Positions 7,911-34,438 of a DNA stretch of 64,000 bases are shown piece after piece. The notes beneath the pieces were generated by a model, which was not told the DNA's origin, did not search any database, and saw only the letters and a list, made by a program, of their open reading frames with translations. A program made the translations under genes and the position numbers. How positions within the stretch are numbered: the stretch's first letter is position 1; each line of letters opens with the position of its first letter. Source of the DNA: Fervidobacterium changbaicum (GTDB lineage: Bacteria; Thermotogota; Thermotogae; Thermotogales; Fervidobacteriaceae); NCBI RefSeq assembly GCF_004117075.1, contig NZ_CP026721.1:1240001-1304000 (forward strand), in the 5' to 3' direction.

Positions 7911-9515
7911 ATGAAAATGGTTTTAGAAATGAGAAGTATCTCTAAGTTTTACTACGGTAACCAGGTTTTAAAGAACGTTTCTATCTCAGTCGGTGAGGGC
8001 GAAATATTGGGATTAGTTGGTGAGAACGGTGCTGGTAAATCAACACTCATGAATATCCTTTTCGGGATGCCTGTGATACATTCCACAGGAGGCTTTGAAG
8101 GAGAGATTATTTTCGATGGACAAAAAGTTGATATAGACTCTCCTTCTAAAGCGATGTCGCTTGGAATAGGGATGGTACATCAGGAATTTATGTTACTTCC
8201 CGGATTCACAGTGACGGAGAACATAAAGCTCAACAGAGAGATTACCAGACCAAACATACTCAGTAAATTACTACGAAAAAATGGAAAAAGACTCGAAACT
8301 TTAGATATACCTGCTATGCGTAAAGATGCAAGGCAGGCACTTGATACTATTAAAATGTACTCAATTGACGAAATGGAATATGTGGCATCCCTTCCGGTTG
8401 CACACAAGCAATTTGTTGAGATAGCTCGTGAAATCGACAAAAAGACGTTGAAGCTTCTTGTTCTTGACGAACCTACTGCCGTTTTGACGGAATCAGAGGC
8501 GGAGAACCTACTGAATATTATCAGATTGCTTTCTGAAAAGGGCATTTCTATCATATTTATTTCACACCGTCTCCATGAAATTTTAGAGGTTGCTCATAGG
8601 ATAGTTATCCTACGAGATGGACAGGTTGTTGCTGAAGGGAACAAAGAAGAGTTCACCGTCTACGAAATTGCGGAAAAAATGGTTGGTAGAAAAATAGAGA
8701 ATGTGGAGCTCCCACCGAGGAAAAAGGAAATGGATGAGAACAATATTATAATGTCGATAAGGCACTTGAAAGTTCATATGCCCGGAGAGGAAGTGAAAGA
8801 CTTTTCAATTGATATCAAAGAAGGAGAAATTCTTGGTATTGGAGGACTTGCAGGGCAAGGAAAACTTGGCATTGCAAACGGTATCTTTGGACTTTACCCT
8901 GCCGAAGGTGATGTAACCTTCATGGGACGAGCGTACCAATTGAACTCTCCAATGTACGCTTTGAAAAGTGGTATAGTTTATGTCTCTGAGGACCGAAGAG
9001 GGGTTGGATTGCTTCTTGATGAATCTGTCGAGATGAACATAGTCGCCACCGCTATCACCGCATTTGGAATGTTCACAAAGAAGTTCCTGGGTTTAACCAT
9101 ATACGACAGAAAAGCTATCAGAGAGCATGCCGAGAAGTTAATAAGGGAATTGGATATACGATGCAAAGGACCCACGCAACCAGTAAGAAGGCTCAGTGGT
9201 GGTAATCAGCAAAAGGTATGTCTTGCACGTGCGTTTACACTCAATCCGAAACTTCTGTTTGTCTCAGAACCGACACGTGGAATAGATGTTGGTGCGAAGA
9301 AGCTTGTTCTTGATTATTTGGTGAAACTCAACAGAGAGCACGGTATTACCATTGTACTTACCTCAAGTGAGTTGGCAGAGCTGAAATCCATATGTGACAG
9401 AATAGCTATCGTTGCTGAAGGTAAGCTCGCTGCAGTGCTACCACCAACAGCGCCAGATGTTGAATTCGGCTTGGCTATGGCTGGCGAGCTAAAGGAGGTA
9501 AAGGCAAATGGGTGA
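7911..9515 (+). CDS. Duplicated ABC ATPase, sugar/nucleoside importer type
   Basis: 534 residues with two fused nucleotide-binding domains. The first has a full Walker A (GENGAGKST) and Walker B (LLVLDEPTAVLT) but a non-canonical signature region (PVAHKQFVEIARE). The second has a degenerate Walker A (GLAGQGK) and a good signature (LSGGNQQK). This asymmetry is characteristic of RbsA/nucleoside-type ATPases. It powers the importer formed with the next two genes. ATG 7911 fits the AGGGGG site; earlier in-frame TTG 7893 and ATG 7905 are less well spaced. Confidence 0.9.
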   Translation: MKMVLEMRSISKFYYGNQVLKNVSISVGEGEILGLVGENGAGKSTLMNILFGMPVIHSTGGFEGEIIFDGQKVDIDSPSKAMSLGIGMVHQEFMLLPGFTVTENIKLNREITRPNILSKLLRKNGKRLETLDIPAMRKDARQALDTIKMYSIDEMEYVASLPVAHKQFVEIAREIDKKTLKLLVLDEPTAVLTESEAENLLNIIRLLSEKGISIIFISHRLHEILEVAHRIVILRDGQVVAEGNKEEFTVYEIAEKMVGRKIENVELPPRKKEMDENNIIMSIRHLKVHMPGEEVKDFSIDIKEGEILGIGGLAGQGKLGIANGIFGLYPAEGDVTFMGRAYQLNSPMYALKSGIVYVSEDRRGVGLLLDESVEMNIVATAITAFGMFTKKFLGLTIYDRKAIREHAEKLIRELDIRCKGPTQPVRRLSGGNQQKVCLARAFTLNPKLLFVSEPTRGIDVGAKKLVLDYLVKLNREHGITIVLTSSELAELKSICDRIAIVAEGKLAAVLPPTAPDVEFGLAMAGELKEVKANG

Positions 9516-10572
9516 GGCTATGGGTATTAAGAACTTTCTGACACAGATTTTCAAGAAGGTTGATATTCCTATACTGGTCATAATTCTTTTCTTACTATCC
9601 TTGTTTGTTTTGGCTGCGTTTACTTCGGTTTCTATAACTGGTTTGATAAATGATTCCTTGGTAAGAATTGGTATGAACGGTGTTTTGGTCCTCGCTATGC
9701 TTCCGACAATTAGGGCCGGCATAGGTCCAAATTTTGGTTTACCTGTCGGTATCATTGGCGGCTTATTGGGGATGCTTATCGTTATGGAGAATCACATAAC
9801 AGGCCCGATAGGCTTTTTTGTAGCAGTTGCCATCTCGATAGCTTTCAATTTGGTTCTTGGATGGATATATGCTTGGTTGCTTGATAAGGTGCGCGGACAA
9901 GAGATGATGGTTGAAACGTACGTTGGTTATTCAATCGTCGCATTTATGTCCATCATGTGGTTGGTGCTCCCGTTTAAAAATCCTGAGATGGTATGGGCCA
10001 TCGGTGGTGTTGGACTGAGGTATACGTTAACGTTACAAGGGTATTTTGATAAGGTTCTGAATAACTTTCTAAGGTTCAAAATTATCGGAGACCTCTACTT
10101 CCCAACAGGTTTGATTCTGTTCTTTGCTTTTATGTGTTTCATCATATATCTATTCTTCAAAACAAAAGCTGGCTTATCTATCGATTTAGTTGGACAGAAT
10201 GAAATGTACGCAGTCAGTTCTGGTGTTAAACCAAGAGCTGCACGAAGGAATGCAGTGATTTTATCAACAGTTTTAGCAGGCATAGGAATTGTTGTTTATG
10301 CCCAAAGTTACGGTTTTGTTCAACTTTATCAAGCACCGCTCTTCATGACATTTCCTGCCGTTGCTTCTATTTTGATAGGTGGAGCGTCGATAAGGAGAGC
10401 TACGATAACAAACGTAGTAATGGGAACGATAATTTTCCAAACTCTTCTGACAGTCGCGTTGCCAGTGCTGAGCCAAGTAACACGCGGTGATATCACCGAA
10501 GTTATGAGGCTTATCGTAAGTAATGGTATGATACTTTACGCACTGACACGCGCTCCAAAGGAGGCAAATTGA
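9508..10572 (+). CDS. ABC importer permease 1 (RbsC/BmpC type)
   Basis: 354 residues with about eight to ten membrane helices. It belongs to the branched-chain amino acid/ribose-type permease superfamily, with the family-like motif RVGMNGVLVLAM in helix 2 position and a Gly-rich GVKPRAARR cytoplasmic loop that contacts the ATPase. AAAGGAGG precedes the ATG, which overlaps the ATPase stop. It pairs with the second permease as a heterodimer. Confidence 0.85.
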   Translation: MGEAMGIKNFLTQIFKKVDIPILVIILFLLSLFVLAAFTSVSITGLINDSLVRIGMNGVLVLAMLPTIRAGIGPNFGLPVGIIGGLLGMLIVMENHITGPIGFFVAVAISIAFNLVLGWIYAWLLDKVRGQEMMVETYVGYSIVAFMSIMWLVLPFKNPEMVWAIGGVGLRYTLTLQGYFDKVLNNFLRFKIIGDLYFPTGLILFFAFMCFIIYLFFKTKAGLSIDLVGQNEMYAVSSGVKPRAARRNAVILSTVLAGIGIVVYAQSYGFVQLYQAPLFMTFPAVASILIGGASIRRATITNVVMGTIIFQTLLTVALPVLSQVTRGDITEVMRLIVSNGMILYALTRAPKEAN

Positions 10573-10573
10573 T

Positions 10574-11644
10574 ATGGAAAAGAACGTAGTAAGCAGAATA
10601 AAATCAATCCTTTTGGGTAATATAGTACCGATAGCTTTCTTCCTACTAACTTTGGGAGCGGTTATCGCAGCAAAGATTCCACCTTTGTTCTTATTATCCG
10701 AAGTTGTCCGAAGGTTAAGCCGAAATACATTTCTTGTCCTCGCTCTTATCATCCCAGTCATTGCAGGACTTGGTTTGAATTTTGCTATAGTTCTTGGGGC
10801 TATGGCTGCTCAGGCTGCGCTTTTCTTTGTTGTGGATTGGAACGTCACAGGTCTAAAAGGTATTCTACTTGCGATGGTTATAGCAAGTTTGATATCTGTC
10901 TTCCTCGGTTGGCTCGTTGGATTAACACTCAACAGAGCTAAGGGGCGCGAAATGATAACATCCATGATACTTGGCTTTTTTGCCAACGGTGTCTATCAGT
11001 TAATATTCCTGTTCTTTATTGGTTCGCTCATACCTTTTTCGAAAGCAGAAATGCTTTTACCACAAGGTGTTGGTTTGAGGAATACCGTTGATCTGTACGG
11101 AACAGTTGCCGGTGCGTTGAATAATATATACGTTGTGAACATAAAGTTCATAAGCATATTTGTAGTACCTTTGCTATTTGTAGTTGGGCTATGTTTATTC
11201 ATCACATTCCTCCTGAAAACAAAGCTTGGTCAAGACTTTAAAGCGGTTGGTCAAGATATGCACATCGCCAGAACAGCTGGTATCGATGTGGACAAGACAA
11301 GGATCATAGCGGTTATATATTCAACTGTTTTGGCAGCAATAGGGCAGGTCATATATCTCCAAGATATAGGAACGGTGAACACGTACAACAGCCATGAACA
11401 AATAGGCCTGTTCTCAATAGCAGCCTTGCTAGTTGGTGGCGCCTCTGTTCGGAAGGCTTCTATATGGAACGCAATAATTGGTGTTTTGCTCTTCCATACG
11501 CTTTTCGTGGTGGCACCAAGTGCAGGTAACAGATTGTTTGGACAACCACAGATAGGTGAATTTTTCCGAGAATTCATAGCTTATGCGGTCATTGCATTTG
11601 CACTCGCAATGCATGGTTGGAAAGCAAGAAAGGCAAAGCATTGA
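10574..11644 (+). CDS. ABC importer permease 2 (RbsC/BmpC type)
   Basis: 356 residues, similar length and topology to its neighbour, with the same arrangement LGLNFAIVLGAMAAQAA near helix 2 and the coupling loop GIDVDKTRIIAVI. Starts one base after the previous stop with AAAGGAGG upstream. Two distinct permeases plus a double ATPase are typical of nucleoside and BMP-family importers, so a nucleoside-like ligand is possible but unproven. Confidence 0.85.
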   Translation: MEKNVVSRIKSILLGNIVPIAFFLLTLGAVIAAKIPPLFLLSEVVRRLSRNTFLVLALIIPVIAGLGLNFAIVLGAMAAQAALFFVVDWNVTGLKGILLAMVIASLISVFLGWLVGLTLNRAKGREMITSMILGFFANGVYQLIFLFFIGSLIPFSKAEMLLPQGVGLRNTVDLYGTVAGALNNIYVVNIKFISIFVVPLLFVVGLCLFITFLLKTKLGQDFKAVGQDMHIARTAGIDVDKTRIIAVIYSTVLAAIGQVIYLQDIGTVNTYNSHEQIGLFSIAALLVGGASVRKASIWNAIIGVLLFHTLFVVAPSAGNRLFGQPQIGEFFREFIAYAVIAFALAMHGWKARKAKH

Positions 11645-11660
11645 AGCAGGCGGAATAATT

Positions 11661-11686
11661 AAAGGGGGACTCTTCCCCCTTTTTAT
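11661..11686. terminator. Bidirectional terminator between convergent genes
   Basis: AAAGGGGGA (11661-11669), loop CTCT, TCCCCCTTT (11674-11682), then TTATTTT on the plus strand and A-rich sequence on the left, which gives a U-tract on the minus strand. It closes the importer operon and the convergent gene ending at 11683. Confidence 0.88.
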
Positions 11687-12147
11687 TTTCTGTACCAGTA
11701 CGCTATCATTACATTTCCAGAAGGATTTTGTAGAGCCGTTATTGCAAAGAAAACATCTGTGCCTGACAGAATAATCAAGTGCGAGATAGAAGAACTTTTT
11801 GCAAGGTCGAATCTGTACCTATTTTTTCCAATTTTCTTTACCGTAACGTTTTCAGCCTTAAAGGTTAATCCTGAAGTTAACTCAAGTTCGACTTCTATAC
11901 CTCTCTTACCCTTTGGATACTTTACCACAATATCATGCGGATGTTTTTTAGGTTTTGGTAATTTTATTTCTTTTCCTTCGGATATCTCGTAATTCACAGA
12001 AACACCAAGAGAAAAATTTAAACCAAAGTTTTGAGTTAGATAAAGCGATAGCTGCAATGATACATTTGGTTCTTTTGAGTCTTTTGGACCTGCAAAAAGC
12101 AGAGAAAATAATAATACACATACAAGTAAGACGTATACTCTTTTCAT
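11683..12147 (-). CDS. Small exported protein, unknown
   Basis: 154 residues. Clear signal peptide (MKRVYVLLVCVLLFSLLFAG) followed by a beta-rich, lysine-rich mature part with alternating hydrophobic residues (VSLQLSLYL, FGLNFSLGVSVNY), which looks like a small beta-barrel or beta-sandwich envelope protein. ATG at 12147 is chosen because GGAGGT lies just upstream and because translation from there starts with the signal peptide; the frame is open further upstream. I do not recognise a family. Confidence 0.7.
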   Translation of the reverse strand: MKRVYVLLVCVLLFSLLFAGPKDSKEPNVSLQLSLYLTQNFGLNFSLGVSVNYEISEGKEIKLPKPKKHPHDIVVKYPKGKRGIEVELELTSGLTFKAENVTVKKIGKNRYRFDLAKSSSISHLIILSGTDVFFAITALQNPSGNVMIAYWYRK

Positions 12148-12199
12148 TTCGACACACCTCCTACACAAACGAAGTAAAACCATGTTTTCACTTTTTAAA

Positions 12200-12228
12200 A
12201 TTATAGCACACAAAGTGTCTTATTTGAA
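12200..12228 (-). promoter_or_regulatory. Promoter of the small exported-protein gene
   Basis: On the minus strand TTCAAA (12228-12223), 17 bases, then TGC-TATAAT (TATAAT 12205-12200), an extended -10. It is about 50 bases upstream of the ATG at 12147. Confidence 0.65.
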
Positions 12229-12243
12229 AGGAGTTGATTAATC

Positions 12244-13074
12244 ATGGGAAATACTTTCATAACAAGCGATGGCGTTGGAATAAAGTACGAGTATTACATC
12301 ACCAAAGCTTTTGAACATACCAACAAAATTCCATTAGTGTTCCTCAACGGAATCTTTATGCACTACGAATCTTGGAAACTTTTTACGAAAGACATTTCAG
12401 AAAAGATGCCTTTGCTTTTCCACAATTTCCGATGTCAGTGGGATTCTGATTGCGAAGAGACTAAAGAATGCTCGTTTGAAAGACACGTGCAGGATTTGAA
12501 AGAATTACTCGACCATCTCGGGATAAAGAAAGCAAAGTTTGTAGGGACCTCTTATGGTGGAGAGGTTGCAATGCTTTTTGGGGTTTTTTATCCACAATAC
12601 ATTGAATCGATGATGATTATAACCTCAACCGCTCGTACGGACAAAGTTATGGAAAGCAAAGCTATGAGATGGAAAGATGGCGCAAAAACAAGAAATCCGG
12701 AGAGTTTTGTTCACAGCTGGCTTACCGATGTGTACAGCGAAAAGTATATAAATTCCTTCGATAACTTAGTGCAAATCATTTCTTCAAGACTTAATGGCTT
12801 TAACTATCGTGGTGCGGAAAGATTAATTGATGCTTTTCTGAACCTGAATAGCTATGACCTTCTCAACAGGATAAAGGATGTAGAATTTCCGTTAGTCGTT
12901 GTTTCTGCGGAATTTGACAGAATAAAACCAAAGAGTTTTAGCCAAGAAATACACAATAGTTTGAAAAAGGGAGTGCATATAACCATTCCAGACTCAGGTC
13001 ATGCGGTCGTTGTCGAAAAGCCAAAGGAAATTGGATGGCTGATTAGGAACTTTGCCTTTGATTTCTGGAAATAG
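12244..13074 (+). CDS. Alpha/beta hydrolase
   Basis: 276 residues. Nucleophile elbow GTSYGGE near residue 103, acid in SAEFDRIKP near 225, and histidine in DSGHAVV near 256, so the Ser-Asp-His triad is complete. A strand-turn of the form VFLNGIF near residue 31 gives the oxyanion region. Cytoplasmic (no signal). An esterase or lipase-like activity on a small ester is likely; the substrate is unknown. GAAAGGAG precedes ATG. Confidence 0.85.
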   Translation: MGNTFITSDGVGIKYEYYITKAFEHTNKIPLVFLNGIFMHYESWKLFTKDISEKMPLLFHNFRCQWDSDCEETKECSFERHVQDLKELLDHLGIKKAKFVGTSYGGEVAMLFGVFYPQYIESMMIITSTARTDKVMESKAMRWKDGAKTRNPESFVHSWLTDVYSEKYINSFDNLVQIISSRLNGFNYRGAERLIDAFLNLNSYDLLNRIKDVEFPLVVVSAEFDRIKPKSFSQEIHNSLKKGVHITIPDSGHAVVVEKPKEIGWLIRNFAFDFWK

Positions 13075-13118
13075 CCTCCTGGCAAATTAGAGAATGGTAG
13101 CTTTTTGGAGGGGTGGCA

Positions 13119-13793
13119 GTGAAAAACGTGTTTAGCTTGATTTTGTTAGTTTTTTTCCTTCCGAATTTGGTTCTATTTGCGCATGCACCTATTGTTTCAA
13201 ATCTTTCGGGTTCAAACATGGCTGAAGCTATTCCGATAAAGAATATCGATATATCTCAGGTTTTATACAAAGTCTTCAAGGAAGACAACTCTTTTCTCTG
13301 GATGACATTTGAAGGCAAGGGAGGAGACGAGTTATACTTCCAAGTAGGCACTCCTAAAGAGGATAAGTACATACAGCTAAGACCAGCTGTCGTAATAATA
13401 GGTCCGGGGTTTCCAAAAGTTGATGGTTTGCCATTTGAAATTCCAGCGGAAATGGGAGCAGTTGTTTGCAAATCTAAGGAATCACCAACAGCCTTTTATG
13501 AGCCTGTAACCGATACAAATTCGTGGATACATTTAACAAAGAGGATAACTTTGCCGCAGACTGGAAGGTACTATTTGGTGGCGTTTTTTCCACCAGATGG
13601 GAAAGCTGGAAATCTATTTGTTGCTGTTGGTACAAAAGAACGATTCACGATGGAGGATATAATTAACGTTTTCAAAATCCTGCCAGAAATAAGAGCTTTC
13701 TACGGACTTTCAGGTTTGCCAACATGGATGAATGTTGTTTTGGGAATTTCAATATTCGGATTAGTGATTTTGTTGACCTCTATATTCAGGTGA
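13119..13793 (+). CDS. Exported membrane-anchored protein, unknown
   Basis: 224 residues. Signal peptide (residues 1-22, ending LFAHA), a soluble beta-rich domain with several Gly/Pro turns, and a C-terminal membrane helix (WMNVVLGISIFGLVILLTSIF). So a domain held outside the cytoplasmic membrane. GTG 13119 is preferred over GTG 13113 because GGAGGGG at 13107-13113 would otherwise overlap the start. No recognised family. Confidence 0.7.
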   Translation: MKNVFSLILLVFFLPNLVLFAHAPIVSNLSGSNMAEAIPIKNIDISQVLYKVFKEDNSFLWMTFEGKGGDELYFQVGTPKEDKYIQLRPAVVIIGPGFPKVDGLPFEIPAEMGAVVCKSKESPTAFYEPVTDTNSWIHLTKRITLPQTGRYYLVAFFPPDGKAGNLFVAVGTKERFTMEDIINVFKILPEIRAFYGLSGLPTWMNVVLGISIFGLVILLTSIFR

Positions 13794-22649: not shown

Positions 22650-23648
22650 TCAGATAATCTCTAATCTCATCATACTTACTAGTTGATCATACTCGTAATC
22701 CTCAGTTTGATTAAGTCCATCGAAAGAGTATTTGATCTTCAAAATCTTGGCTGTATTTGTCTTAAGATTCTTTGGGAAGTCTTCAGCGATAAGTATGCCG
22801 CACAGAAGTTCACCTTCTTTATCAAAGTCATCGATGTATTCATTAAGTTGATTAAGATCTTTATTACTTGCCACTCTGTTTTTTGCTTCTATCAAGATGT
22901 ATTGATTCCTTTCAACAGGGTGCTTCAGCTTAACAAACAAATCTACGAAACCTTTTGATAAGGCCTTCTCACTGAGAATTTCGAATTCATGTGGTTGTTT
23001 GTTAGAACCACAACGGATTAATATTTCATTGAGCAAAGAACTTAGGGTTCTTTTTAAGAGCGACTGAAGAATATTTTCGTTGAATTTCACTACCGTATAA
23101 TCTTCTTTTCCAATCTGTGGTTGTGTCTTACGAAATGTGATTTTTGGTACAAATTCTTCGACATCCAGGTCGCTGATAGGAGTTTCAATTTTCTGTTCTG
23201 TGGATATTTCTACGGATCTTCCCAAACTTGAAACATAGGACAGCATTGCAGCATCGGCTTGGAAATGAGTTTTCCGATAGCCTCCTCTAAGTAGAAGATC
23301 TTCCGCGACGTAGGCAAATTCTGAACGAACTATACTTTCATCGAATTCTCGGACAAGTCTAAGTTTCATCCTATATGGAAATGAGTACGTTTTCCCAGAT
23401 TCTTTAAATGTTATTGGCTTCCACGGCGGTAGTTTTCCAGCGTTTTTATACGCGATTTTCTTCTCAGCTTTATAAAGATTTTTAATCCTTGCACCATACA
23501 GGAAAGATATGTAATCACCTTCATCGATGTCTAAATAAGACCATAGTCCGTTGGTACTACTAGGAAATCCTGCTAGCTGATATTTGACACACAAGTTCAA
23601 ATTTTCTTTGTTTGATACAGAAATAAGATAGTACTTTGGTTCTGACAT
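22650..23648 (-). CDS. Predicted modification-dependent restriction enzyme: EVE/YTH-like domain plus PD-(D/E)XK nuclease
   Basis: 332 residues. Residues 1-150 look like a PUA-superfamily EVE/YTH module, the fold that flips out and reads modified bases: YYLISVSNKENL at the start, DIDEGDYISFLYGARI near 45, and SFPYRMKLRLVREFD near 91. The C-terminal third has a PD-(D/E)XK core, with D in GFVDLFVKLKHP, then a strand ending ILIEAKNR (E-x-K). Such two-part proteins cut DNA carrying modified bases. It stands alone next to the B12 operon. ATG 23648 is favoured by GGGAG nine bases upstream; the frame is open 90 bases further. The assignment rests on motifs only. Confidence 0.65.
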   Translation of the reverse strand: MSEPKYYLISVSNKENLNLCVKYQLAGFPSSTNGLWSYLDIDEGDYISFLYGARIKNLYKAEKKIAYKNAGKLPPWKPITFKESGKTYSFPYRMKLRLVREFDESIVRSEFAYVAEDLLLRGGYRKTHFQADAAMLSYVSSLGRSVEISTEQKIETPISDLDVEEFVPKITFRKTQPQIGKEDYTVVKFNENILQSLLKRTLSSLLNEILIRCGSNKQPHEFEILSEKALSKGFVDLFVKLKHPVERNQYILIEAKNRVASNKDLNQLNEYIDDFDKEGELLCGILIAEDFPKNLKTNTAKILKIKYSFDGLNQTEDYEYDQLVSMMRLEII

Positions 23649-23696
23649 TAAATAACACTCCCTACGCAAAGTTGAATTTAGCATTTTGGCATAAAT

Positions 23697-23705
23697 ATTA
23701 TACCA
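23697..23705 (-). promoter_or_regulatory. Extended -10 of the nuclease gene
   Basis: Minus-strand TGG-TATAAT (TATAAT 23702-23697), about 50 bases before the ATG. The -35 is poor, so this is an extended -10 promoter. The same TGGTATAAT stands in front of several other genes in the window. Confidence 0.55.
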
Positions 23706-23791
23706 TTTGGTTATTATTAAAACGGTTTTAATCAACATGCTTATTGAGAAATTAGAAACTTAGTAAAAAACTTCATTTCTATTAACAGTGA

Positions 23792-24602
23792 TTACAAAAA
23801 CGGGTTGTAAAATCTACCTTTGTTGACGTAGATACCAATTAATATTACCACTACAAAGCTCGCCACTGCAACCATGAGTGCTAAATAATCTTCCTTTGTA
23901 AGTCTTTTCGTCGTATACCACGTTCTCTTTTTATATTTGCCAAAGCCTCTCAAATCCATTGCGTTGCTTATTTTCTCAACTCGTTCCAAGCTGGAAAAAA
24001 TCAAAGGAATGAGTATGAGCAAAGCGTACTTGAATCTGTCTTTAAACTTCGCTTTACGGGACAAATCGATACCTCTTGCCTGCTGTGCCAGGCTTATATC
24101 CGTATAAGCCCTCTGAATATCGGGAAAATACCTAAGTGTAAGTGCAAAAGCGTAGGCTACTTTGTAGTTGACACCTATTTTGTTGAGCGAAGATGCCAGT
24201 TCACTTGGGTTCGTTGTGAATAAGAAAATCATCCCAAGTGGTATCACGGATACGTACTTTAAGAATTTAGTAGTTTGGTAGAAGAGTTGTTCGAGAGTCA
24301 CCGGATAATTCTTAGAAATAAAAAACAACACGTGTTCTGTACCGAAGATTTTCACGCCTTCCATCGGAGCAAAAAGGAATGTGAATATCTCATTAACAAC
24401 AAGAAATGCAAAAACGTACGCGAACATCAATTTGACCCTTGAGAATCTTATTTTAGCAACACGCATCAAAAAGAACGAGAAGAATAGGATAGCTACGATG
24501 ACTCTTATATCGTACGTGTACATTACCGCAGATGTTAGTAAAAGGAAGGCTATCAATTTGGTCAAACCGGAAAGCCTGTGAATAATTGTTTCATCGGAGT
24601 CA
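23792..24602 (-). pseudogene. ecfT: ECF T component, 5' end split off by the IS110 insertion
   Basis: The T subunit of the second ECF operon. The frame reads DSDETIIHRLSGLTKL directly from the IS junction at 24602, matching the usual EcfT opening (..IHRLDPRTKL), then five or so membrane helices with both coupling motifs, QQARGID near residue 165 and DLRGFGKY near 205. The natural start codon and codon 2 lie on the far side of the IS, at 25990-25992. A GTG/ATG restart inside would give a shortened protein, so activity is doubtful. The rest of the gene is intact. Confidence 0.85.
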
Positions 24603-24603
24603 A

Positions 24604-25803
24604 CTATGCAAAATTAAATTTTTGTTTTGAGTGTGAGATAGCATAATCAATATTGAACTTCTCTTTCTTTCTCAACATTGCGTACAACGTTCGCAATAAC
24701 TTGTGTACTACTGACATTATCGCTTTTTTGTACGGTATACCTTGCTGCCTTTTTCGTTCATAGTATGTTCGGAAATATTCGTTGTGAATCACTACACTCA
24801 CTGCCATTAGCCATAGTATTCGTCTTAGGTGGGCATTGCCCCTTTTCGATATGTGTCCTTCTACTTTGCTTTTGCCTGATTGGGCAATGCTTGGATCGAG
24901 TCCACAATACGCAATGAGTTTTTTGTATGTACTAAATCTTGAGATATCTCCAACTTCTGCCAAGAAATGCATCGCGCTGTTTTCACCAATACCTGGTATT
25001 GACGTGAGTATCTCGATATCAAGGTTTATCGCACTACATTCGCAATATTCTTTCATCATCTTGTCGTATTCTTCAAGCTGTTGCTGTAAAAATTGTAGTT
25101 CTTTGATATTTTGCACAAGAATCTTTTCTTTCATCGGCCAATATTGAGCAATCGAGTTATTAGCGAGTTCTTTAAGTTTTTGAGCATTAAGTTTTGTACT
25201 TCTGCCACGGTCTTTGGAAAAGAACACATCCAGATTACGAGCCTTTTGAATAGCCTTGGCAGAAGGGAAATGAGAAAGAAGATTGAGGATAGTGTCACTG
25301 TAGATATTGGTAACTCTTTCGAGTTCAGGGAAAAGAACGTTGAGCAGTTTTTCGATATTGTCTTTAACTTTTGCGATGCGGTGGATAATGTTTTCGCGTG
25401 CTCTGACAATATCACGAAGCTCAGAGTTGACAAAAGCAGAAGAAGGAATTTGATGTTGTAGGTAAAACAAAGCAGTAGCGATAATGCGAGCATCGATTTT
25501 GTCGGTTTTGGTCTTTCGAAGAGAAGCAAAGTTTTTAACAGTTAGAGGATTAAAAACAGCGCAAGCAAAGTCGTTGGAAGAAAGGAAAGCCAGAAGGTTG
25601 AGATGATAACAGCCAGTAGATTCCATAGCGATGATGATGGATTGTTTTGGGAAGGCAGAGAGTTTGTTTGCGAAGGAGGAAAAGCCTTGCTGGGACATAT
25701 CGAAAGAAGATTCGAAGATGATGGAACTGGGATTAGAGATAGCGCAGACGTTGAACTTATCCTTGGAAACATCGATGCCGACGAATATGGAGAAGTTATT
25801 CAT
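24604..25803 (-). CDS. IS110-family transposase (DEDD recombinase)
   Basis: 399 residues. The N-terminal RuvC-like domain starts FVGIDVSKDKFNV with AMESTGCYH near 66 and KTDKIDARIIA near 105. The C-terminal Transposase_20 domain has SIPGIGENSA near 264 and then AYCGLDPSIAQSGKSKVEGHISKRGN, which holds the catalytic serine region. Together with a bridge RNA it joins the circular element to a target. ATG 25803 has AAAGGAGG seven bases upstream. The stop codon TAG uses the G of the flanking GT core. Confidence 0.93.
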   Translation of the reverse strand: MNNFSIFVGIDVSKDKFNVCAISNPSSIIFESSFDMSQQGFSSFANKLSAFPKQSIIIAMESTGCYHLNLLAFLSSNDFACAVFNPLTVKNFASLRKTKTDKIDARIIATALFYLQHQIPSSAFVNSELRDIVRARENIIHRIAKVKDNIEKLLNVLFPELERVTNIYSDTILNLLSHFPSAKAIQKARNLDVFFSKDRGRSTKLNAQKLKELANNSIAQYWPMKEKILVQNIKELQFLQQQLEEYDKMMKEYCECSAINLDIEILTSIPGIGENSAMHFLAEVGDISRFSTYKKLIAYCGLDPSIAQSGKSKVEGHISKRGNAHLRRILWLMAVSVVIHNEYFRTYYERKRQQGIPYKKAIMSVVHKLLRTLYAMLRKKEKFNIDYAISHSKQKFNFA

Positions 25804-25987
25804 ACAAGAACCTCCTTTCAATTGATGAGGGCAGGGAGCCTACTGAACCAATCCTCCATGCTGACGAGGGCTGAAAGCCCAACCAACTTATCATGGTTAA
25901 AGGCAGGCAACAGACTCCCAAAATGGCTTAAAAGCCAAGGTGACATAAGTTGTCCTGCCCTCAATTTTTTTAAGCTAAATTATTTAT
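24605..25987 (-). mobile_element. IS110-family insertion sequence, about 1.38 kb
   Basis: One DEDD recombinase gene plus a structured 5' non-coding region, no terminal inverted repeats. Both edges can be read: GT at 25989-25988 and GT at 24604-24603 (minus strand) flank the element. Keeping one GT restores ATG-GTT-GAC-TCC in the interrupted gene, so GT is the likely core dinucleotide. It separates the second ECF ATPase from EcfT. Confidence 0.9.
25826..25963 (-). ncRNA. Candidate bridge RNA of the IS110 element
   Basis: The 5' non-coding region of the element is bounded by a perfect 10-bp inverted repeat, TGAGGGCAGG (25826-25835) / CCTGCCCTCA (25954-25963). Inside are two loop structures. 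Loop 1 has apical stem GGCTT/AAGCC (25925-25936) and closing CAAC/GTTG. Loop 2 has apical stem GGGCT/AGCCC (25868-25880). This is the two-loop plan of IS110 bridge RNAs. In loop 1 the 5' strand carries UUAUG and the 3' strand GGAGUC (25918-25913). The insertion site reads TATG-GTT-GACTCC on the same strand, so both halves match in the expected orientations. Confidence 0.7.
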
Positions 25988-27331
25988 ACCATATTTTTAT
26001 GTAGGAGGTGTACATTATTAATTTCTCCTGCATGGCTCTTTCTCACCATCCTATCGTAGTTGATGAAGTGTTGGACGAACCTTGTGGAATCTTGTACACC
26101 TACTATCTGTGCCAATTTGTAGAGTGAGGTTTCCTTCAGGTTTGCCTTTTCGATTACCTGTACGTCGGTCAAAATCTCAGATGGTTTTGCATTAGCTACG
26201 ATTTCTCCGTCTGCAAAAACAACAGCCCTGTCTGTGTATTCCATGATTAAGTGCATGTCGTGCGTGATTAGGATTATCGTCTTTCCCATAGAATTTAGCT
26301 GCGCTAAGAATTCCATAATTTCAGAATAATGTTTGAAATCTTGACCTGCGGTTGGTTCGTCGAGGATGATTATTTCAGGGTCAAGTACTAATATTGAGGC
26401 GATTGTGACACGCTTTTTCTGACCATAGCTCAACGCAGAAATAGGCCATTCGAGAAAAGGTTTGAGACCGCATATTTCGGCGACTTCGGAAACTTTGCTT
26501 TTAATTTCATCCTCGGGGACTTTTCTTAATCGCAGTCCAAGGGCTATTTCGTCGTAGATCATAGGTTTTGTAATCATCTGATTGGGATTCTGCATCACAA
26601 ATCCTATAATTTCTGCTCGTTCTTTTATCGTCATATCGTTCAATTTCTTGCCTCTGTACGTTATCGTTCCGGAATCTTCTTTAACGAATCCGCAAAGAAC
26701 TTTCGCAAATGTTGATTTGCCGGCGCCGTTCTTACCTACTATGGAAATCATTTCTCCTTCTTTGATTTCAAGATTTATATTCCTTAAAACAGGCTTGTTC
26801 TTCTCATATGCGAAATTCAAGTTCTCGACTTTCAGTATTGGTTCTGAATCGAAATCTTTATCGTCCAAATCTCGGTCACTACCAGCCTTGAACCAATTCA
26901 CAACCTTTTGCTTTTCGGCTTCCCCTAATTCAAGTGTGTGTATGTAACCAGGTTTAAGGGAAGGTGATACATTGACTCCCGCGTATTTGAGTGCGGAAAC
27001 ATACAGTGGCTCTCTCAAGCCCGCTCCTTTAAGGATATCGCTTGCCATTAGTTCGTGTGGATGCATGTCAGCTATAATTCTACCGTTGTTCAGTACAATC
27101 ACACGGTCCACTTCTATGTGAAGCACGTCTTCGAGTCTATGTTCGACGATGATAACAGTTTTTCCCGTTTTCTTGTGCAGGTCATCGATAATCTCCATTG
27201 CCTTCTTTGCTGTTGCCGGGTCTAAATTTGCTAAAGGCTCATCGAACAGTAAGATATCAACATTGTCCACCAACACACCGGCTATCGTGGTTCTCTGTTT
27301 TTGTCCACCAGATAATTCAAAAGGAGAATGA
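25984..27331 (-). pseudogene. ecfA: Fused double ECF ATPase, 5' part missing
   Basis: The surviving frame begins HSPFELSGGQKQR, that is, at the signature motif of the first ATPase domain; its Walker A and Q-loop (about 130-150 codons) are gone. The second domain is complete: Walker A GKNGAGKST, Q-loop MQNPNQ, signature-like ALSYGQKKR, Walker B IIILDEPTAGQD, THD. The left edge joins the TnpB element directly. I could not find the missing 5' part on the other side of that element, so it was deleted. At its 3' end the frame runs into the IS110 element. Confidence 0.85.
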
Positions 27332-27450
27332 GTGAACCGCCCATGACTGAAGTCACGAGCTTCCTGCTTCACTGACAAGACTTGCTACCAGTGGTACACC
27401 ACCGATAGTAGAGGTCTTGCCTCCACAGGCATCGCCTTCCGGCTCGGGCC
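27332..27450 (-). ncRNA. Predicted reRNA (omega RNA) of TnpB
   Basis: In TnpB elements the guide RNA comes from the 3' end of tnpB and the element's right end; the guide is the flanking host sequence. Here the scaffold would end with the hairpin near 27337-27360 and GGTTCAC, and the guide would be the first bases of the ATPase remnant (minus strand, 27331 downward, TCATTCTCCTTTTGAATTA). The 5' limit is a guess. Confidence 0.5.
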
Positions 27451-28627
27451 GTCCCAGCCCTACGGGTTTATTAATCTCGCTAAGCAGCTTTAGACCTTCT
27501 GCAAGTATATTCCTCGCCGCATTGAAATCTCTGTCGTGTACACTACCACACCTTGGACACTCCCAAACTCTCACACTCAGCTCTTTCACTTCTTCGTTCT
27601 TGTATCCACAATCACTGCATGTTTGTGATGATGGAAAGTTGGGCGATACCTGTATGAATATCCTGCTTCGTCTCTCAGCTTTGTATTTGAGCATTCGCAA
27701 AAATTTCGACCATGATGCATCATGTATGCTCTTTGCAAGCCGTCCGTTCTTTACCAGGTTTTTAACCCTCAGCTCCTCGCAGATAATTACTTGGTTTTCG
27801 TTAATCACCTGCGAGGATAATTCCTCCAGAAAATCATTCCTGATATTTGATATTTTCTGATGCAACTTAGCAAGTTTGATTCTGGCTTTCTCAAAGTTCT
27901 TGCTTTTTACTTTCTTTCTTGATAAATCTTTTTGCAGTTTCTTTAGTTTTTTCTCATATTTAGCAAGCACCTTCGGTGCTTCGACACGATTACCGTTGCT
28001 ATCCACGTGGAAACTTTTAAGTCCAAGGTCGAGTGCAACTGCATAGTTGATTGGCTCTGGTGTTTGGTTTTTGTTATTAACTTTATCAACCTCAACAGCG
28101 ATTGAAACGTAGTAGTGTCCACTGGGAAGTAACGTGACAGTTGCTGTCTTTATCTTACCGTTGAACGTTCTGTGTATTCGTGCTTTAATCCAACCAAGTT
28201 TCGGTAGTCTTATTTTTCCCCAACAGCGGTTCTTGGTCTTATCTTTTGCCATAACTCCGAAATCAATCTGGATGTTGTTGTTTGTAGAATACGTTGTATA
28301 TGAAAACCTGTGTGATTTTTTCTTCTTAAAGTGAGGTTTACCGGATAGACCCTTGAAGAATCTGTTATATGCATTATCCAATCTTATCAATGCATCTTAC
28401 AGAGCAAACTTATCGACTTCCCTAAGCCAAGGATACTGCTCTTTGAGCACACTATTTAGGTGTTTTCTACACTCAGCCTCTGTGGTTGCGAGTTTTTGTT
28501 CTTTATATCTTTCCTCTCTCCAAGCAAGAAAGTAGTTCCACACAAATCTTGTGCAGCCGAATGTTTTGGAAAGTTGCAGTTTTTGTTGCTTGTTTGGATA
28601 TATCCTGTATCTGTACGTGACTATCAA
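27353..28627 (-). pseudogene. tnpB: tnpB with an internal nonsense codon
   Basis: RNA-guided RuvC-like nuclease of about 424 residues. The frame is continuous except for TAA at 28399-28397 (KFAL-stop-DALIRLDNAYNRFF), where CAA (Gln) is the likely ancestor. The catalytic residues are all present downstream: ALDLGLKSF (Asp), IICEELRVKNL (Glu), CGSVHDRDFNAARN (Asp), with zinc finger CSDCG..CPRCG. The C-terminus (GGVPLVASLVSEAGSS) runs into the element end as usual. The 77-residue upstream piece alone cannot work. Confidence 0.88.
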
Positions 28628-28710
28628 CTTAACTTCTCTCCTTATCTTTCCATCTGCAAAGGCACGCCACTACCGATGCTCATTTGTAGGTAAATTAACA
28701 TGCTAAATGT

Positions 28711-28719
28711 ATTATACCA
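28711..28719 (-). promoter_or_regulatory. Extended -10 inside the TnpB element
   Basis: Minus-strand TGG-TATAAT (TATAAT 28716-28711), about 84 bases ahead of the tnpB ATG, with TCGACT about 17 bases upstream as a modest -35. Confidence 0.5.
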
Positions 28720-28888
28720 TCTGTTGTTTGAAAGTCGAAACAAAACGACGATTCTGGTAACATAACTATCTAACATATCAGCTGTTACTCATGTCTGAAG
28801 ACACGAGAGTGTCTTTAGCTTCAATATAAAATCTCCCCAGCCTTCAAGCTGGGGAGAGCATCTTAAAAACTTTTGAAAAAACTTAAGA

Positions 28889-29449
28889 TTATTCTGCTTT
28901 CTTTAAACTGCCTTTCTTTGGTTTTGTTGCAACGTAGGCTATGAGCAGAAGTGTTCCGATGACTCCCGCACTTATAATATTCATTATCATCGCTGTAACT
29001 CCTTGGATGAAAACCTTGTCGGCAGGCTCGGCGTATATAACGATATCAAGTACAGGAGCAACAATTAACCAAGCAATCGCGTTTCCAATTATTTGGAAGA
29101 TATTTACTTTGAGTATGTTTTTACCAGTGAACTCACCTTCTTCGACTTTTGTGAATTTGTAAGCCAAGCCGTATATAAAGCCGGCAAGTCCACTTGCGAT
29201 GACCCAGCTCCACCATGGAGAACCATATTGAATAGCATCGCTAAGTGCGTGACCAATAAACGCAGAAAGTCCGCCAGCTATGGGACCGTAGAGCGTGGCT
29301 ATAAAAAGTGCAAAGCCTTAAGCAGTCATGAAACTCGTTTGAGGAACTGGTGAAGGAATCTTAACGAACATGAACAAGAGCAGAAAGATAGCTGCCCCGA
29401 TACCCGATGCAACAACCGTTGCAGTTGAAAACTTGAAAAGTTTCTTCAT
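28889..29449 (-). pseudogene. ECF S component of the UPF0397 family, nonsense at codon 44
   Basis: ATG 29449 (GAGGAGG upstream) starts MKKLFKFSTATVVASGIGAA, then PSPVPQTSFMTA, then TAA at 29320-29318, and the same frame continues GFALFIATLYGPIAGGLSAF and SPWWSWVIASGLAGF to 28889. The PVPxTS and SPWWSWVIASG blocks are hallmarks of UPF0397 S components. Total 186 codons, the normal length. With the fused ATPase and EcfT that follow on the same strand, this is the first gene of the second ECF operon. Reinitiation after the stop would lose the first membrane helix. Confidence 0.88.
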
Positions 29450-29578
29450 ACTTCCCATCCTCCTCTTCTTGGTTTTCGGAATAGAATCAAAAGTAGAATA
29501 TCCCTTGAATCATGAGATTTAGACATATTTTTGAAACCATTAAACCTTCTAATTTCAACATGAGGTTTTAACATAATC

Positions 29579-29608
29579 ATTATAACACACTATCTCTCAT
29601 TTTCTCAA
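29579..29608 (-). promoter_or_regulatory. Promoter of the second ECF operon
   Basis: Minus-strand TTGAGA (29608-29603), 18 bases, TATAAT (29584-29579). About 130 bases of leader follow before the S-component ATG; no known riboswitch was recognised in it. Confidence 0.7.
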
Positions 29609-29657
29609 ATTTGATTACTCTAATGTTTTTTTAGTTGATTTACTTTTTTTGAACTTG

Positions 29658-29666
29658 TGATAAAAT
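29658..29666 (+). promoter_or_regulatory. Extended -10 of the HEAT-repeat gene
   Basis: TGA-TAAAAT (TAAAAT 29661-29666), about 75 bases upstream of the start, no clear -35. Divergent from the ECF promoter. Confidence 0.45.
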
Positions 29667-29740
29667 TGTAAAGTTGTTCCGTTAATTGTAAGGATAAATC
29701 TGTTCCAAAGTGGGTAGATCCACGAATGGAGATGATTACC

Positions 29741-32700
29741 ATGGTGGATACTGAGAAGCAAGCAAGGGTTAAAGACATACGAACTGTTCAAATAATAGTA
29801 TCTGAAAAAAGTATGGAAAAACTTATATTCGGTAAACCTACGGTTGATTATTTTAAAATCACCAGAGATTTACTAAGAACCTACGGAGGCCTGAAGGTTG
29901 TTGAACAAAGAGTAAACGAGACCGATGCTCAAGTAGTGATTCAAACAGAAGAACAAGCGAACAAAATAGATGGTACTGTGGCATTTCGAGCAGGAGAATA
30001 TCTATACAACTCAAAGTTCACAATAAACCTATCCGAAAAATCAAAGGTCCAAGTTCCAACTTTCGAATTTGAGGCTTGTATTCTGGAGATACTGGCATAT
30101 GTGAAAGGAAATGAGGTCCTTTTAGCGGTTTTAAAAGAGAAGGATCTTAACAGAAAAAAGGCTTCAGTGAAAGCTATTGGGAATTTGAGTGATCCAAAAT
30201 TCATCTCTGCCTTAGTTGAACTACTACCTAATTCGCCTCCTTGTCTGAGAAAGTTAATTATCGAATCGCTCGGAAAAATAAGAGATCCAAGGGTAATCCC
30301 GCCACTCGCTTTATCACTGAAAGACGAAGATCCAGTCGTTCGTGATACTGCTAAGATCACTCTTTTTAATGCACTCCGTTCAGGCCTTCCGGTTGATAAA
30401 ACTGTATATTCGCTGTTAGAGGATAAAAAACCCTGTGTTCGTTCTGCGATCGTTGATATTTTAGCAAACGTGCACAGCGACATCGTTGTTGAACCACTAA
30501 TTAAAGCACTGAACGATGAAAATCCGAATATTAGGCTACGTTCCGTGCAAGCGTTGGAGAAATTGAAGGATCAAAGGGCTGTTGAACCTATATCGAAGCT
30601 ACTATCAGACAAGGATCCCACAATTAGGCTTTCCGCCGCTCAGGCAATCGGAACAATTGGACACGAAAAGGCTGTTGAGATGCTCTCTGCCGCTGTTAAC
30701 GATAGTGAATGGAAAGTTAGAAAGAGCGTTGCAGAGGCCCTTGGTAAGACGAATGATCCCAAGACCACTCCTTACCTTGTGGAACTAATCAAAGATCAAT
30801 CACCAGATGTAAGAAGAGCAGCGGTTGAAGCACTTCAATTTGTTGGAGATGAAACCTCTGTAAAGGCACTTATTGAGGCTCTGAGAGATGAAGATTCGTG
30901 GATAAGAATGTCTGCAGCTGAATTATTGGGGAAAATAGGAAGTTCAGAAGCTGTAGAAAGCCTCATTGAAGCTCTCCAGGATCCTTCTCCGAACGTTAGA
31001 AGGGCAGCAGCTGAGGCTCTTGGTCGGATAGGTGATGAGCGTTCTTTAGAACCTCTTATGGAAAAACTAAATGATGATTTCACAAAAGTAAGGGAAGCAG
31101 CTGCAGAGGCTCTTGGCAAACTACACGACATCCGAGCTTCATCTTCACTTATCGACGTATTGGAAAACCACAGTGAGGAGGATCCAGTAAAAGAGGCTTC
31201 AATAAGGGCTCTTGGAAATATAAGAGATTTTGAATCAGTTGATATAATCGTAACCATGGTAAATGATGAAAATCCCAATATACGAAAAGCAGTAGTTGAA
31301 GCACTTGGGAAGATAGGTGATGTGAGGACTCTGAATTTACTCGTCAGTATAGCTACTGATAGCAATGAAGAACTTTCGGTAAGAAAGACTGCAATTGAGG
31401 CACTTGGCCAGATAGGCGATGAGCAAGCCGTTTACCCCCTTATCGAATTTCTCAATAGTGACGATCCAGATTTGAGAAAATCAGCGGCTTGGGCACTCGG
31501 AGAGATTGGGAGCCTTGGAGCTGTTGAACATTTGGTTGGGATGGTCCAAGACAGAGACATCAACGTGAAAATTGCCGTAGTAGAAGCGCTGGGAAAGATA
31601 AAAGACAAAAGATCTGCAGATGTTATCATCCTGTTGTTGAAAGATAAAGAAGCTGAAGTAAGAAAAGTAGCTATTCAAACTCTCGGACAAATCGGAGATA
31701 ACACAAAAATTGATTATCTTATTCAATCACTGAAGGATCCTTCTGCCAATGTTAGAAAAGCTGCAGCAGAAGCCCTTGGTTCAATGGGAAATGCAGAGGC
31801 GATAAGTGCGCTTTTGGAAACGTTGAAAGATGAAGATAAAGACGTAAGGATGGCTGCTATGGATGCGCTCACTAAGATAGGAGGTTCGAAAGTTTTAGAG
31901 CAACTGCTGATTTTGACAATTAAAGGTAATGAGATAACTACTAAGTATCAAGAATCTCAGACTCGTGACAGAGTAACAGGTGCCATCGGAGACCTGATGG
32001 ATACGGTTCCCACAATCCTTGGATTAGGAACTCCACAAACACAGAAAAGAAGTTCTAAAAATACTGCTGATCAGAAAGAGACGGATGTCGAGATTTTGAT
32101 ACATATGGTTTCTGATGAAGATTTAGACATCGATCTGCGTCAAAGGGCTGTTGTTGTCCTTGGTGAGACAAGGGCACAGAAAGCTGTGGAAGCATTAACG
32201 AAAATGCTTAATGACAAGAACGAATCGTTGCGGGAGTCGGCAGCAATCTCGTTAGGAAAGATAAGGGACCGAAGCGCTTTACAGAGTCTAGGTATGTTAC
32301 TGAATGATAAATCTTCGGATGTAAAAAAGGCTGCAATTTGGGCGATTGGCGAGATAGGTGTTATAGAAGCTCTAGAATATCTTAAGAAAGCTTTGAAAGA
32401 TAGCGACTGGACTATTCGCGATGCTGTCGTTAAAGCGCTTCGGAGTGTTTGGCAACAAAACATTCAAGGAGCTTTTGAACTTATAGCTCAAGCAATAAGA
32501 GATGTAGATTACCACGTAAGAAACAGTGCGAAGATAGAACTACAGATAGCTGCTAAGTCAGGATGCAATATAACAGATATTCTCACCAAACTTTTGAAGG
32601 ATAGAGACCTCTTCGTAAGGCTTGGAGCTGCTGAAATACTTGGATACACAAAAGATCCAAAAGCTGTTGACGCTCTTATTGAAACTTTAAAGAGCGTAGA

Positions 32701-34438
32701 CACTGCGGTTCGAAAAATGGCTATAGAATCGTTAGGCAAAATTGGGGAACCAGATTCAGTCGCTGAATTGTCGAAATTAGTTAATGACAGAGATTTTGGT
32801 GTGCGTTTGGCATTAGTTAAGACTTTGGCGAGCATACAGCACGAGAATACAATAGAACCACTCACAAGAATGCTTAGTGACCAAAGTGATGAAATTCGCT
32901 CGATGGCTGTTCAAGCACTTGGAAAATTTAAGGACGAACGAGTAATTAATGCAGTTGGAGAACTCCTGAAAGACGAAAATGTGCAAATACGTTCTTCGGT
33001 GGTACAAGCACTTGACAATATTGGAGGAAAGGAAGTTTTGCAATTGTTAAGTACAGCAACAGCGGATAATGATTGGAGGATTAGAAAGGCTGCTATAGAA
33101 GCTATCAAGAGGATAGCTGAGAAAGAAGGAATAGCCGATCAGAGAATAATAACCGAAATTGTAAATCTACTTAAAGATCAAAATTCGACAGTGAGAAAAG
33201 CAGCAGCTGAAACACTCTATTCTATAGGTAATCTTGAAGTTCCTGGCATTGTTGAAGCCTTTCTCGATGCTCTAAACGATGAAGATTCTTGGGTACGGTT
33301 AGCAAGTGTTCAAGCCCTTGGAAAATTTGGTGGTTGGTCAGTTGTAGACCATTTAATAAGTGCCTTAAAAGATTCTGCATCTTACGTAAGAAGAGCTGCT
33401 GCAGAGGCATTGGGGAGGATAGGTGACTTGCGATCTACACAGGCGTTAATGGAGACATTGAAGGACACAGATTGGAAAGTTCGTAAAGCTGCCACGGAAG
33501 CTCTCGGAATGATAAGCGATGAAACAACAGTTGAAGCACTTGCTGACATCCTCAACGACGAAAACACTGAAGTCAAAATTACTGTTTTGGAAGTTCTAGG
33601 AGAATTAGCAGACTCTTCAATACTTGACAGAGTAGCAACGGCGCTTAGTGACAAAGATCCAGAAGTAAGAAAAAAGGCAGTCGAAACAATTTGGAAACTA
33701 GGTACACCTGAAGCCGTTAAGTTCTTAATTAAAGCTTTAAAAGATCATGACGCCGAGGTAAGAATCAAAGCTCAGGAAGGAATCCTCCGTGTCAGTGATT
33801 TCAGTGTGCTCGGGCATGTTAACGAGTTGTTGAAAGATGATGACCCAAACGTAAGATGGCTGGCAGTACAAGTATTGAAGAAAATAGGTGGGGCATCTGT
33901 GGTCAAACCATTGGTGAAAGCGACGCAGGATCCCGTTTTCAGTGTACGGTGGTTTGCTGTTGAAGCACTTGGTGAAATTGGGAATCAAAAAGCAATTCTA
34001 AATTTGTCTGAACTATTGGAAGATAAAGACTACACAATACGCAGGTCTGCTGCAGAGGCAATTGGAAGAATTGGAGGCAAGCAGGCGTTCGAAGTTTTAA
34101 TTGAAGCGTCAGGCAACAAAAATCCAGAAGTAAGGGAAGGTGCTGTTTGGGGATTAATGAAATTGGCAGTATACGAATCGGAAAAGGTTGTTGAGATCCT
34201 TGAGAAGATGACAGACGATGTGAACCAAAATGTTAAAAAGTCAGCAATAAAAGCTCTCACCAGTATGAGAAGTAAAGAAGCCTTCAAAATTATTATAGAA
34301 AAACTGAAAAGTCAAGATGCAGATACAAGAAAAATTGTATCAGAGGCACTTGAAGAAGTCACCGGAGAAAAATTCGGCCAAGATTATGAAAGCTGGTTAA
34401 ACTGGTTAAAAGATAGCGGACTATACTTAGATGAATAA
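29741..34438 (+). CDS. Giant HEAT-repeat (PBS-lyase type) protein
   Basis: 1565 residues. After an N-terminal domain of about 100 residues (RTVQIIVSEKSMEKLIFGKP..) the protein is an almost unbroken series of about 31-residue helical repeats with consensus DxxxxVRxAAxEALGxIGDxxAVxxLIxxLxD, over 40 copies by rough count. One break near residues 740-800 is a polar linker (TPQTQKRSSKNTADQKETD). No signal peptide, membrane segment or enzyme motif, so it should be a cytoplasmic solenoid scaffold. HEAT arrays of this kind bind proteins or nucleic acids. ATG 29741 has GGAG nine bases upstream; ATG 29726 is the alternative. Confidence 0.85.
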   Translation: MVDTEKQARVKDIRTVQIIVSEKSMEKLIFGKPTVDYFKITRDLLRTYGGLKVVEQRVNETDAQVVIQTEEQANKIDGTVAFRAGEYLYNSKFTINLSEKSKVQVPTFEFEACILEILAYVKGNEVLLAVLKEKDLNRKKASVKAIGNLSDPKFISALVELLPNSPPCLRKLIIESLGKIRDPRVIPPLALSLKDEDPVVRDTAKITLFNALRSGLPVDKTVYSLLEDKKPCVRSAIVDILANVHSDIVVEPLIKALNDENPNIRLRSVQALEKLKDQRAVEPISKLLSDKDPTIRLSAAQAIGTIGHEKAVEMLSAAVNDSEWKVRKSVAEALGKTNDPKTTPYLVELIKDQSPDVRRAAVEALQFVGDETSVKALIEALRDEDSWIRMSAAELLGKIGSSEAVESLIEALQDPSPNVRRAAAEALGRIGDERSLEPLMEKLNDDFTKVREAAAEALGKLHDIRASSSLIDVLENHSEEDPVKEASIRALGNIRDFESVDIIVTMVNDENPNIRKAVVEALGKIGDVRTLNLLVSIATDSNEELSVRKTAIEALGQIGDEQAVYPLIEFLNSDDPDLRKSAAWALGEIGSLGAVEHLVGMVQDRDINVKIAVVEALGKIKDKRSADVIILLLKDKEAEVRKVAIQTLGQIGDNTKIDYLIQSLKDPSANVRKAAAEALGSMGNAEAISALLETLKDEDKDVRMAAMDALTKIGGSKVLEQLLILTIKGNEITTKYQESQTRDRVTGAIGDLMDTVPTILGLGTPQTQKRSSKNTADQKETDVEILIHMVSDEDLDIDLRQRAVVVLGETRAQKAVEALTKMLNDKNESLRESAAISLGKIRDRSALQSLGMLLNDKSSDVKKAAIWAIGEIGVIEALEYLKKALKDSDWTIRDAVVKALRSVWQQNIQGAFELIAQAIRDVDYHVRNSAKIELQIAAKSGCNITDILTKLLKDRDLFVRLGAAEILGYTKDPKAVDALIETLKSVDTAVRKMAIESLGKIGEPDSVAELSKLVNDRDFGVRLALVKTLASIQHENTIEPLTRMLSDQSDEIRSMAVQALGKFKDERVINAVGELLKDENVQIRSSVVQALDNIGGKEVLQLLSTATADNDWRIRKAAIEAIKRIAEKEGIADQRIITEIVNLLKDQNSTVRKAAAETLYSIGNLEVPGIVEAFLDALNDEDSWVRLASVQALGKFGGWSVVDHLISALKDSASYVRRAAAEALGRIGDLRSTQALMETLKDTDWKVRKAATEALGMISDETTVEALADILNDENTEVKITVLEVLGELADSSILDRVATALSDKDPEVRKKAVETIWKLGTPEAVKFLIKALKDHDAEVRIKAQEGILRVSDFSVLGHVNELLKDDDPNVRWLAVQVLKKIGGASVVKPLVKATQDPVFSVRWFAVEALGEIGNQKAILNLSELLEDKDYTIRRSAAEAIGRIGGKQAFEVLIEASGNKNPEVREGAVWGLMKLAVYESEKVVEILEKMTDDVNQNVKKSAIKALTSMRSKEAFKIIIEKLKSQDADTRKIVSEALEEVTGEKFGQDYESWLNWLKDSGLYLDE

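Follow-up and report, generated by a model that had tools for sequence, protein, structure and literature searches.

Gene structure and upstream region

The gene studied here occupies positions 22650-23648 on the minus strand of a 64-kb stretch of Fervidobacterium changbaicum DNA (64,000 nucleotides, referred to throughout as the window). Judging from its translation, an alignment of nine full-length homologues and an AlphaFold model, it almost certainly encodes an EVE-type reader joined to a NucS-like PD-(D/E)XK nuclease. The position agrees with that given in the initial annotation, which had left the strand unstated; the plus-strand reading of the same interval contains 16 stops and was discarded. 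The longest mechanical open reading frame at the locus begins at an ATG at 23738 and encodes 362 aa. Because the N-termini of the homologues align at the ATG at 23648 and a GGGAG sequence is found 9 nt upstream of this codon, we placed the start of the gene there, yielding a product of 332 aa plus stop. The gene is present in one copy in the whole genome, which is a single contig of 2.27 Mb, and it is under purifying selection, with dN/dS values of about 0.13 in two pairs (0.148/1.187 and 0.139/1.052).

The initial annotation described the gene as standing alone with its own promoter. It has no partner gene, but it does follow ecfT on the same strand at a distance of 143 bp. A two-hexamer promoter scan of the minus strand from ecfT to the start codon found none. 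A pattern search identified a possible extended -10 element, TGGTATAAT, at positions 23697-23705 of the minus strand, located about 49 nt before the start codon, and with this candidate a promoter of the gene's own is plausible. The extended -10 pattern to which this element belongs, TGNTATAAT, was found 15 times in the 64-kb window compared with 3.1 expected, suggesting that extended -10 promoters are common in this organism.

The N-terminal domain is an EVE relative

The AlphaFold model, built from seven aligned proteins (mean pLDDT 84, pTM 0.84), contains two domains. VIA-align and hhalign both assign the N-terminal one (residues 1-145; 23214-23648, minus strand) to the EVE/PUA fold. Compared by VIA-align with solved structures, this part of the predicted model matches 2p5d with a Z of 14.7 (129 residues, 2.3 Å), PH1033 with a Z of 13.6 and many YTHDC1 entries with a Z of about 12 (12.4). 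A Z below about 8 may reflect merely a common arrangement, and the values obtained for both domains of the protein exceed this level. Foldseek agrees with VIA-align and also matched the EVE-HNH enzyme VcaM4I (1.2e-3).

The closest structural matches include both EVE and YTH proteins, and the profile comparison distinguishes between them. Aligned with archaeal-type EVE proteins, the N-terminal profile obtains an hhalign score of 34.5 (E 4.4e-5, probability 69), while the maximum in 150 column-shuffled controls is 21.1. Aligned with the YTH domain of YTHDC1 alone, it scores 18.6, a value reached by 3 of the 150 shuffles. Because the EVE score exceeds all shuffles and the YTH score does not, we conclude that the reader is an EVE relative and that its likeness to YTH is a resemblance of fold. 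The earlier assignment to an EVE/YTH superfamily is therefore retained for EVE, by fold and by profile, and limited to the fold for YTH.

Neither the Pfam EVE model (PF01878) nor the YTH model (PF04146) matches the protein, and a profile search with the DCD domain (PF10539, Dev_Cell_Death) returned no match in the gene or its relatives at E values up to 10. Bell et al. (2020, PMC7641849) note that many EVE domains of defence proteins likewise escape all but sensitive methods such as HHpred.

Several motifs are common to the reader and EVE proteins, namely YxI..T/S...N, GD, F/YPYR and a conserved His near the end of the domain. The GDxxxFxxG..FPYR features from which the reader had originally been proposed are present as G44-D45-Y46-I-S-F-L-Y-G and F90-P91-Y92-R93. 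Residues G44, D45, Y46, F90, P91 and R93 are invariant in the nine full-length homologues, a set that includes the window protein and eight others 29 to 65% identical to it. The strong fold matches, together with an EVE score above every shuffle, indicate that these features are not due to chance.

The C-terminal domain is a NucS-type nuclease

Residues 190-310 (22719-23081, minus strand) form a PD-(D/E)XK nuclease domain of the NucS/EndoMS type, as identified by VIA-align and Pfam. This part of the model matches 2vld, the nuclease domain of Pyrococcus abyssi (Pab) NucS, with a Z of 11.2 over 103 residues (2.6 Å, 21% identity). Pfam reports only weak PDDEXK_9 and NucS_C matches for the window protein (residues 221-291); one relative matches NucS_C at 6.5e-7, above the curated cut-off. 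Membership of the NucS/EndoMS family itself was rejected: NF003270 covers residues 225-294 alone at 24.9 bits against a cut-off of 216, and the N-terminal part is EVE.

The active site of Pab NucS consists of D160, E174, K176, E127, Q187 and Y191 (NucS review, PMC7343888). Pairwise alignment places D236, E254, K256, Q267 and Y271 of the window protein at D160, E174, K176, Q187 and Y191, respectively, and the range of the fold alignment places E191 at E127. All six residues of this catalytic set (22836-23078, minus strand) are invariant in the nine homologues. The E-x-K core proposed in the initial annotation (E254-x-K256, with D236 and Q267-xxx-Y271) is thus present and invariant, within a predicted model that has the NucS-type nuclease fold. 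The window protein shares its nuclease fold and all six active-site residues with NucS/EndoMS (Pab NucS, 2vld; Tko EndoMS, 5gke); its N-terminal part is an EVE reader in place of the NucS DNA-binding domain. A family profile search of the protein detected neither an NTPase nor a helicase domain.

The nuclease part also bears on two other possible functions. In a Shedu-type system, the N-terminal domain would sense a signal other than a modified base and unleash a non-specific nuclease, with destruction of the phage genome or death of the cell as the outcome. A distant relative (L005, 30% identical) has a match to SduA_C that stays under the curated cut-off (1e-4), and relatives match the PADLOC candidate PDC-S02 weakly, in the nuclease part. 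In the window protein and its close relatives the match is to NucS_C, and the sensor domain has an EVE fold whose candidate pocket residues are invariant, so that we regard a Shedu-type function as highly improbable. For L005 itself, a low-confidence model (pLDDT 54) has 2p5d as its top match and 2vld among the first four.

The other possibility concerns RNA. RNA is the ligand of many EVE and YTH domains, and the reader fold matches many YTH-RNA complexes; the EVE domain could accordingly read a modified RNA base, with the nuclease cutting RNA or acting as an abortive effector during infection. NucS-type PD-(D/E)XK domains, however, work on DNA, and we consider an RNA-directed function quite unlikely.

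Candidate base-binding pocket

In VcaM4I, the flipped base is held between W82/P24 and Y130, with Q128 filling the gap and T11 and E15 touching the edge of the base (PMC7897488). Eight residues of the window protein, invariant in the nine homologues, are candidates for an equivalent pocket: S12, N16, F28, W36, W76, H128, F129 and Q130 (23259-23615, minus strand). In our mapping W76 would correspond to W82, F129 or a neighbour to Y130, S12 to T11 and N16 to E15. Our alignment thus puts an invariant Asn where VcaM4I, which reads 5mC/5hmC with P24, W82, Y130 and E15, has Glu. N16 also aligns with N367 of YTHDC1, which we take to be an m6A contact.

W36 is a new invariant aromatic residue in this domain. 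An invariant Ala26 occupies the position of the Trp in the IWGV motif of archaeal EVE proteins, and in our alignment YTH proteins also have Trp there; the pocket would therefore differ from known ones. The initial annotation had made its proposal dependent on a nuclease fold and an aromatic base-binding cage. The model contains the nuclease fold. The reader fold is present as well, and the invariance of W36, W76 and F129 makes these three aromatics a candidate cage.

The Asn at the Watson-Crick-edge position, as in m6A-reading YTHDC1 and unlike the Glu of VcaM4I, together with the invariant Ala in place of the archaeal EVE Trp, would fit a subfamily whose target base is neither 5mC nor 5hmC. 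Such a protein would join a repair-type NucS nuclease to an EVE reader whose specificity is new; it would be heat-stable and the first EVE-PD-(D/E)XK enzyme to be characterized. We put this forward as a speculative possibility that is more probably wrong than right.

Distribution and genomic neighborhood

Within the phylum, the gene family is found in 5 of 103 genomes (its own genome counted), all belonging to one family: none of the 8 other genomes of the genus and 4 of the 19 others of the family carry it. A homologue 65% identical to the window protein is present in the hot-spring MAG bacterium GBS-1. In a second phylum, represented by a set centred on an Acidobacteria MAG, the gene is found in 3 of 396 genomes, with two homologues 51-53% identical to the window protein. 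This patchy distribution, including another phylum at 51-53% identity, suggests horizontal transfer of the gene. No homologues were found in phages, plasmids or viral contigs, where the lack of a match does not prove absence.

In all genomes examined, the gene has no partner and is located among unrelated housekeeping genes. Its position varies from one genome to the next, and no cognate methyltransferase adjoins it. No recognizable defence island surrounds it in any of these genomes; such a location is typical of type IV genes without defining them.

Two regions were compared, 22650-29725 of the window and 9183-13541 of GBS-1 (L063). In the window, the nuclease gene is located between cobO and ecfT. 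In GBS-1 it is located between a HEAT-repeat gene and a transporter S-component, at the opposite flank of the same transporter cluster. A sister genome (L078) has kept the neighboring HEAT-repeat and transporter genes and lacks the nuclease gene. The nuclease gene has been moved or gained twice within this one neighborhood, and its distribution and context have the pattern of a gene subject to gain, loss and relocation.

The ECF transporter cluster (24604-28627, minus strand) contains an IS110 transposase and an IS605-type TnpB that itself spans two frames. The ABC gene of the cluster encodes 464 aa compared with 601 aa in the sister genome, and both this gene and the S-component look truncated. 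Beside the cluster, a gene for a 1570-aa HEAT-repeat protein (29726-34438, plus strand) is conserved in GBS-1 and the sister genome. Further along the window, two adjacent open reading frames (55420-56713, minus strand) look by eye like an RRXRR/HNH IscB-type nuclease broken in two.

The genomic context is also where a role in DNA repair has to be weighed. The EVE pocket could read a damaged base (deaminated, oxidised or alkylated) at which the NucS-like domain would then cut. The nuclease fold is closest to NucS/EndoMS, a repair enzyme of thermophiles that cuts at mismatches and deaminated bases; several of the hosts are apparently thermophiles, and the neighbors are housekeeping rather than defence genes. 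Most sister genomes nevertheless lack the gene, as the counts for the genus and the family show, which is unusual for a repair gene, and its location differs from genome to genome. On balance, a repair function appears unlikely.

Methyltransferases in the same genome

A solitary DNA methyltransferase with an SPPY motif (m4C type) is encoded at 128-1042 on the plus strand of the window; its closest solved relatives are 2zie and DNA cytosine-N4 methyltransferases. Near 2.19 Mb in the same genome (L065, 3154-11153), a methyltransferase with a DPPF motif (m6A type) adjoins a ResIII/SWI2-SNF2 helicase and an AAA_23 ATPase, and this locus is a second restriction-like or defence system. If both of these methyltransferases are active, their presence implies that the enzyme tolerates m4C and m6A in their own contexts. 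Across 20 genomes of the family, carrying the gene showed no clear link with having or lacking methyltransferases.

A putative modification-dependent restriction endonuclease

Predicted fold, profile comparison and invariant residues all point to a fusion of an EVE-type reader with a PD-(D/E)XK nuclease. The features listed for NTP-independent modification-dependent enzymes are a single open reading frame, no methyltransferase partner and a spotty distribution (PMC7897488). The present gene combines sensor and nuclease in one open reading frame without an NTPase, has no cognate methyltransferase and is distributed spottily. Since it resembles the listed enzymes in these respects and, like them, contains no motor, we think that the protein is probably a stand-alone, NTP-independent, modification-dependent (type IV) restriction endonuclease. 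Of the original description as a modification-dependent restriction enzyme, the fusion is thus well founded, and restriction is the function we infer from it. Counted against restriction are the lack of a defence island, of a Pfam EVE/YTH match and of phage, plasmid or viral homologues, as well as Ala26; in addition, PADLOC gives no model matching the window protein.

As a type IV enzyme, the protein would act as follows. The N-terminal EVE domain would flip a modified base out of the DNA and hold it in the aromatic pocket. Connected to this domain through a linker of low order (about residues 146-185), the NucS/RecB-type PD-(D/E)XK domain would cut the DNA beside the modified base, using Mg2+ or Mn2+ and probably working as a dimer. 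Host DNA would escape cleavage, since the reader would not recognize the host's marks in their native contexts, and the likely target would be foreign modified DNA, which would be destroyed. In this scheme we infer the DNA rather than RNA target, the base flipping, the dimer, the defence role and the base that is read.

Relation to known systems

Many putative EVE-PD(D/E)XK fusions and some YTH-like-PD(D/E)XK fusions have been reported as putative type IV enzymes (Bell, Wolf and Koonin, 2020, PMC7641849). Their EVE-PD(D/E)XK class has the same architecture as the window protein, a diverged EVE reader and a PD-(D/E)XK domain in one protein, and is a prediction presented in that paper without biochemistry; the main text of the paper makes no mention of NucS, Thermotoga or Fervidobacterium (PMC7641849). 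Because such fusions have been reported, the kind is already known as a prediction, and the novelty claimed in the initial annotation was too strong for the architecture. What is new is the branch: the gene represents an unnamed subfamily of this predicted kind, one that no Pfam, NCBIfam or PADLOC model names. Our literature search found no assayed EVE-PD-(D/E)XK enzyme; a 2019 screen outside its scope could include one.

Among characterized enzymes, the EVE-HNH proteins VcaM4I, TspA15I and CmeDI likewise carry EVE and nuclease in one open reading frame without an NTPase, with the EVE domain N-terminal in VcaM4I, but their nuclease is HNH where the present one is PD-(D/E)XK. The archaeal EVE proteins MJECL36 (2p5d) and PH1033 (1wmm), whose folds are closest to that of the reader, are stand-alone proteins without a nuclease and have Trp in the IWGV motif where the reader has Ala. 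YTH-McrB of Thermococcus gammatolerans, which reads m6A (cited in PMC7641849 and PMC12707154), is also a restriction enzyme of a thermophile with a PUA-type reader. In contrast to the present protein, it has a McrB-type NTPase motor and a separate nuclease, and the reader described here has no sequence similarity to YTHDC1 beyond that of shuffled profiles.

The characterized EVE nuclease fusions that we found in the literature are all EVE-HNH, and PD-(D/E)XK fusions have been predicted for years. A compact, probably heat-stable and motor-free member with an unusual pocket would test which bases EVE domains read beyond 5mC/5hmC, and could possibly serve as a reagent for mapping modified bases. 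The m4C-type and m6A-type methyltransferases of the same genome provide a built-in prediction of the marks that the enzyme must spare.
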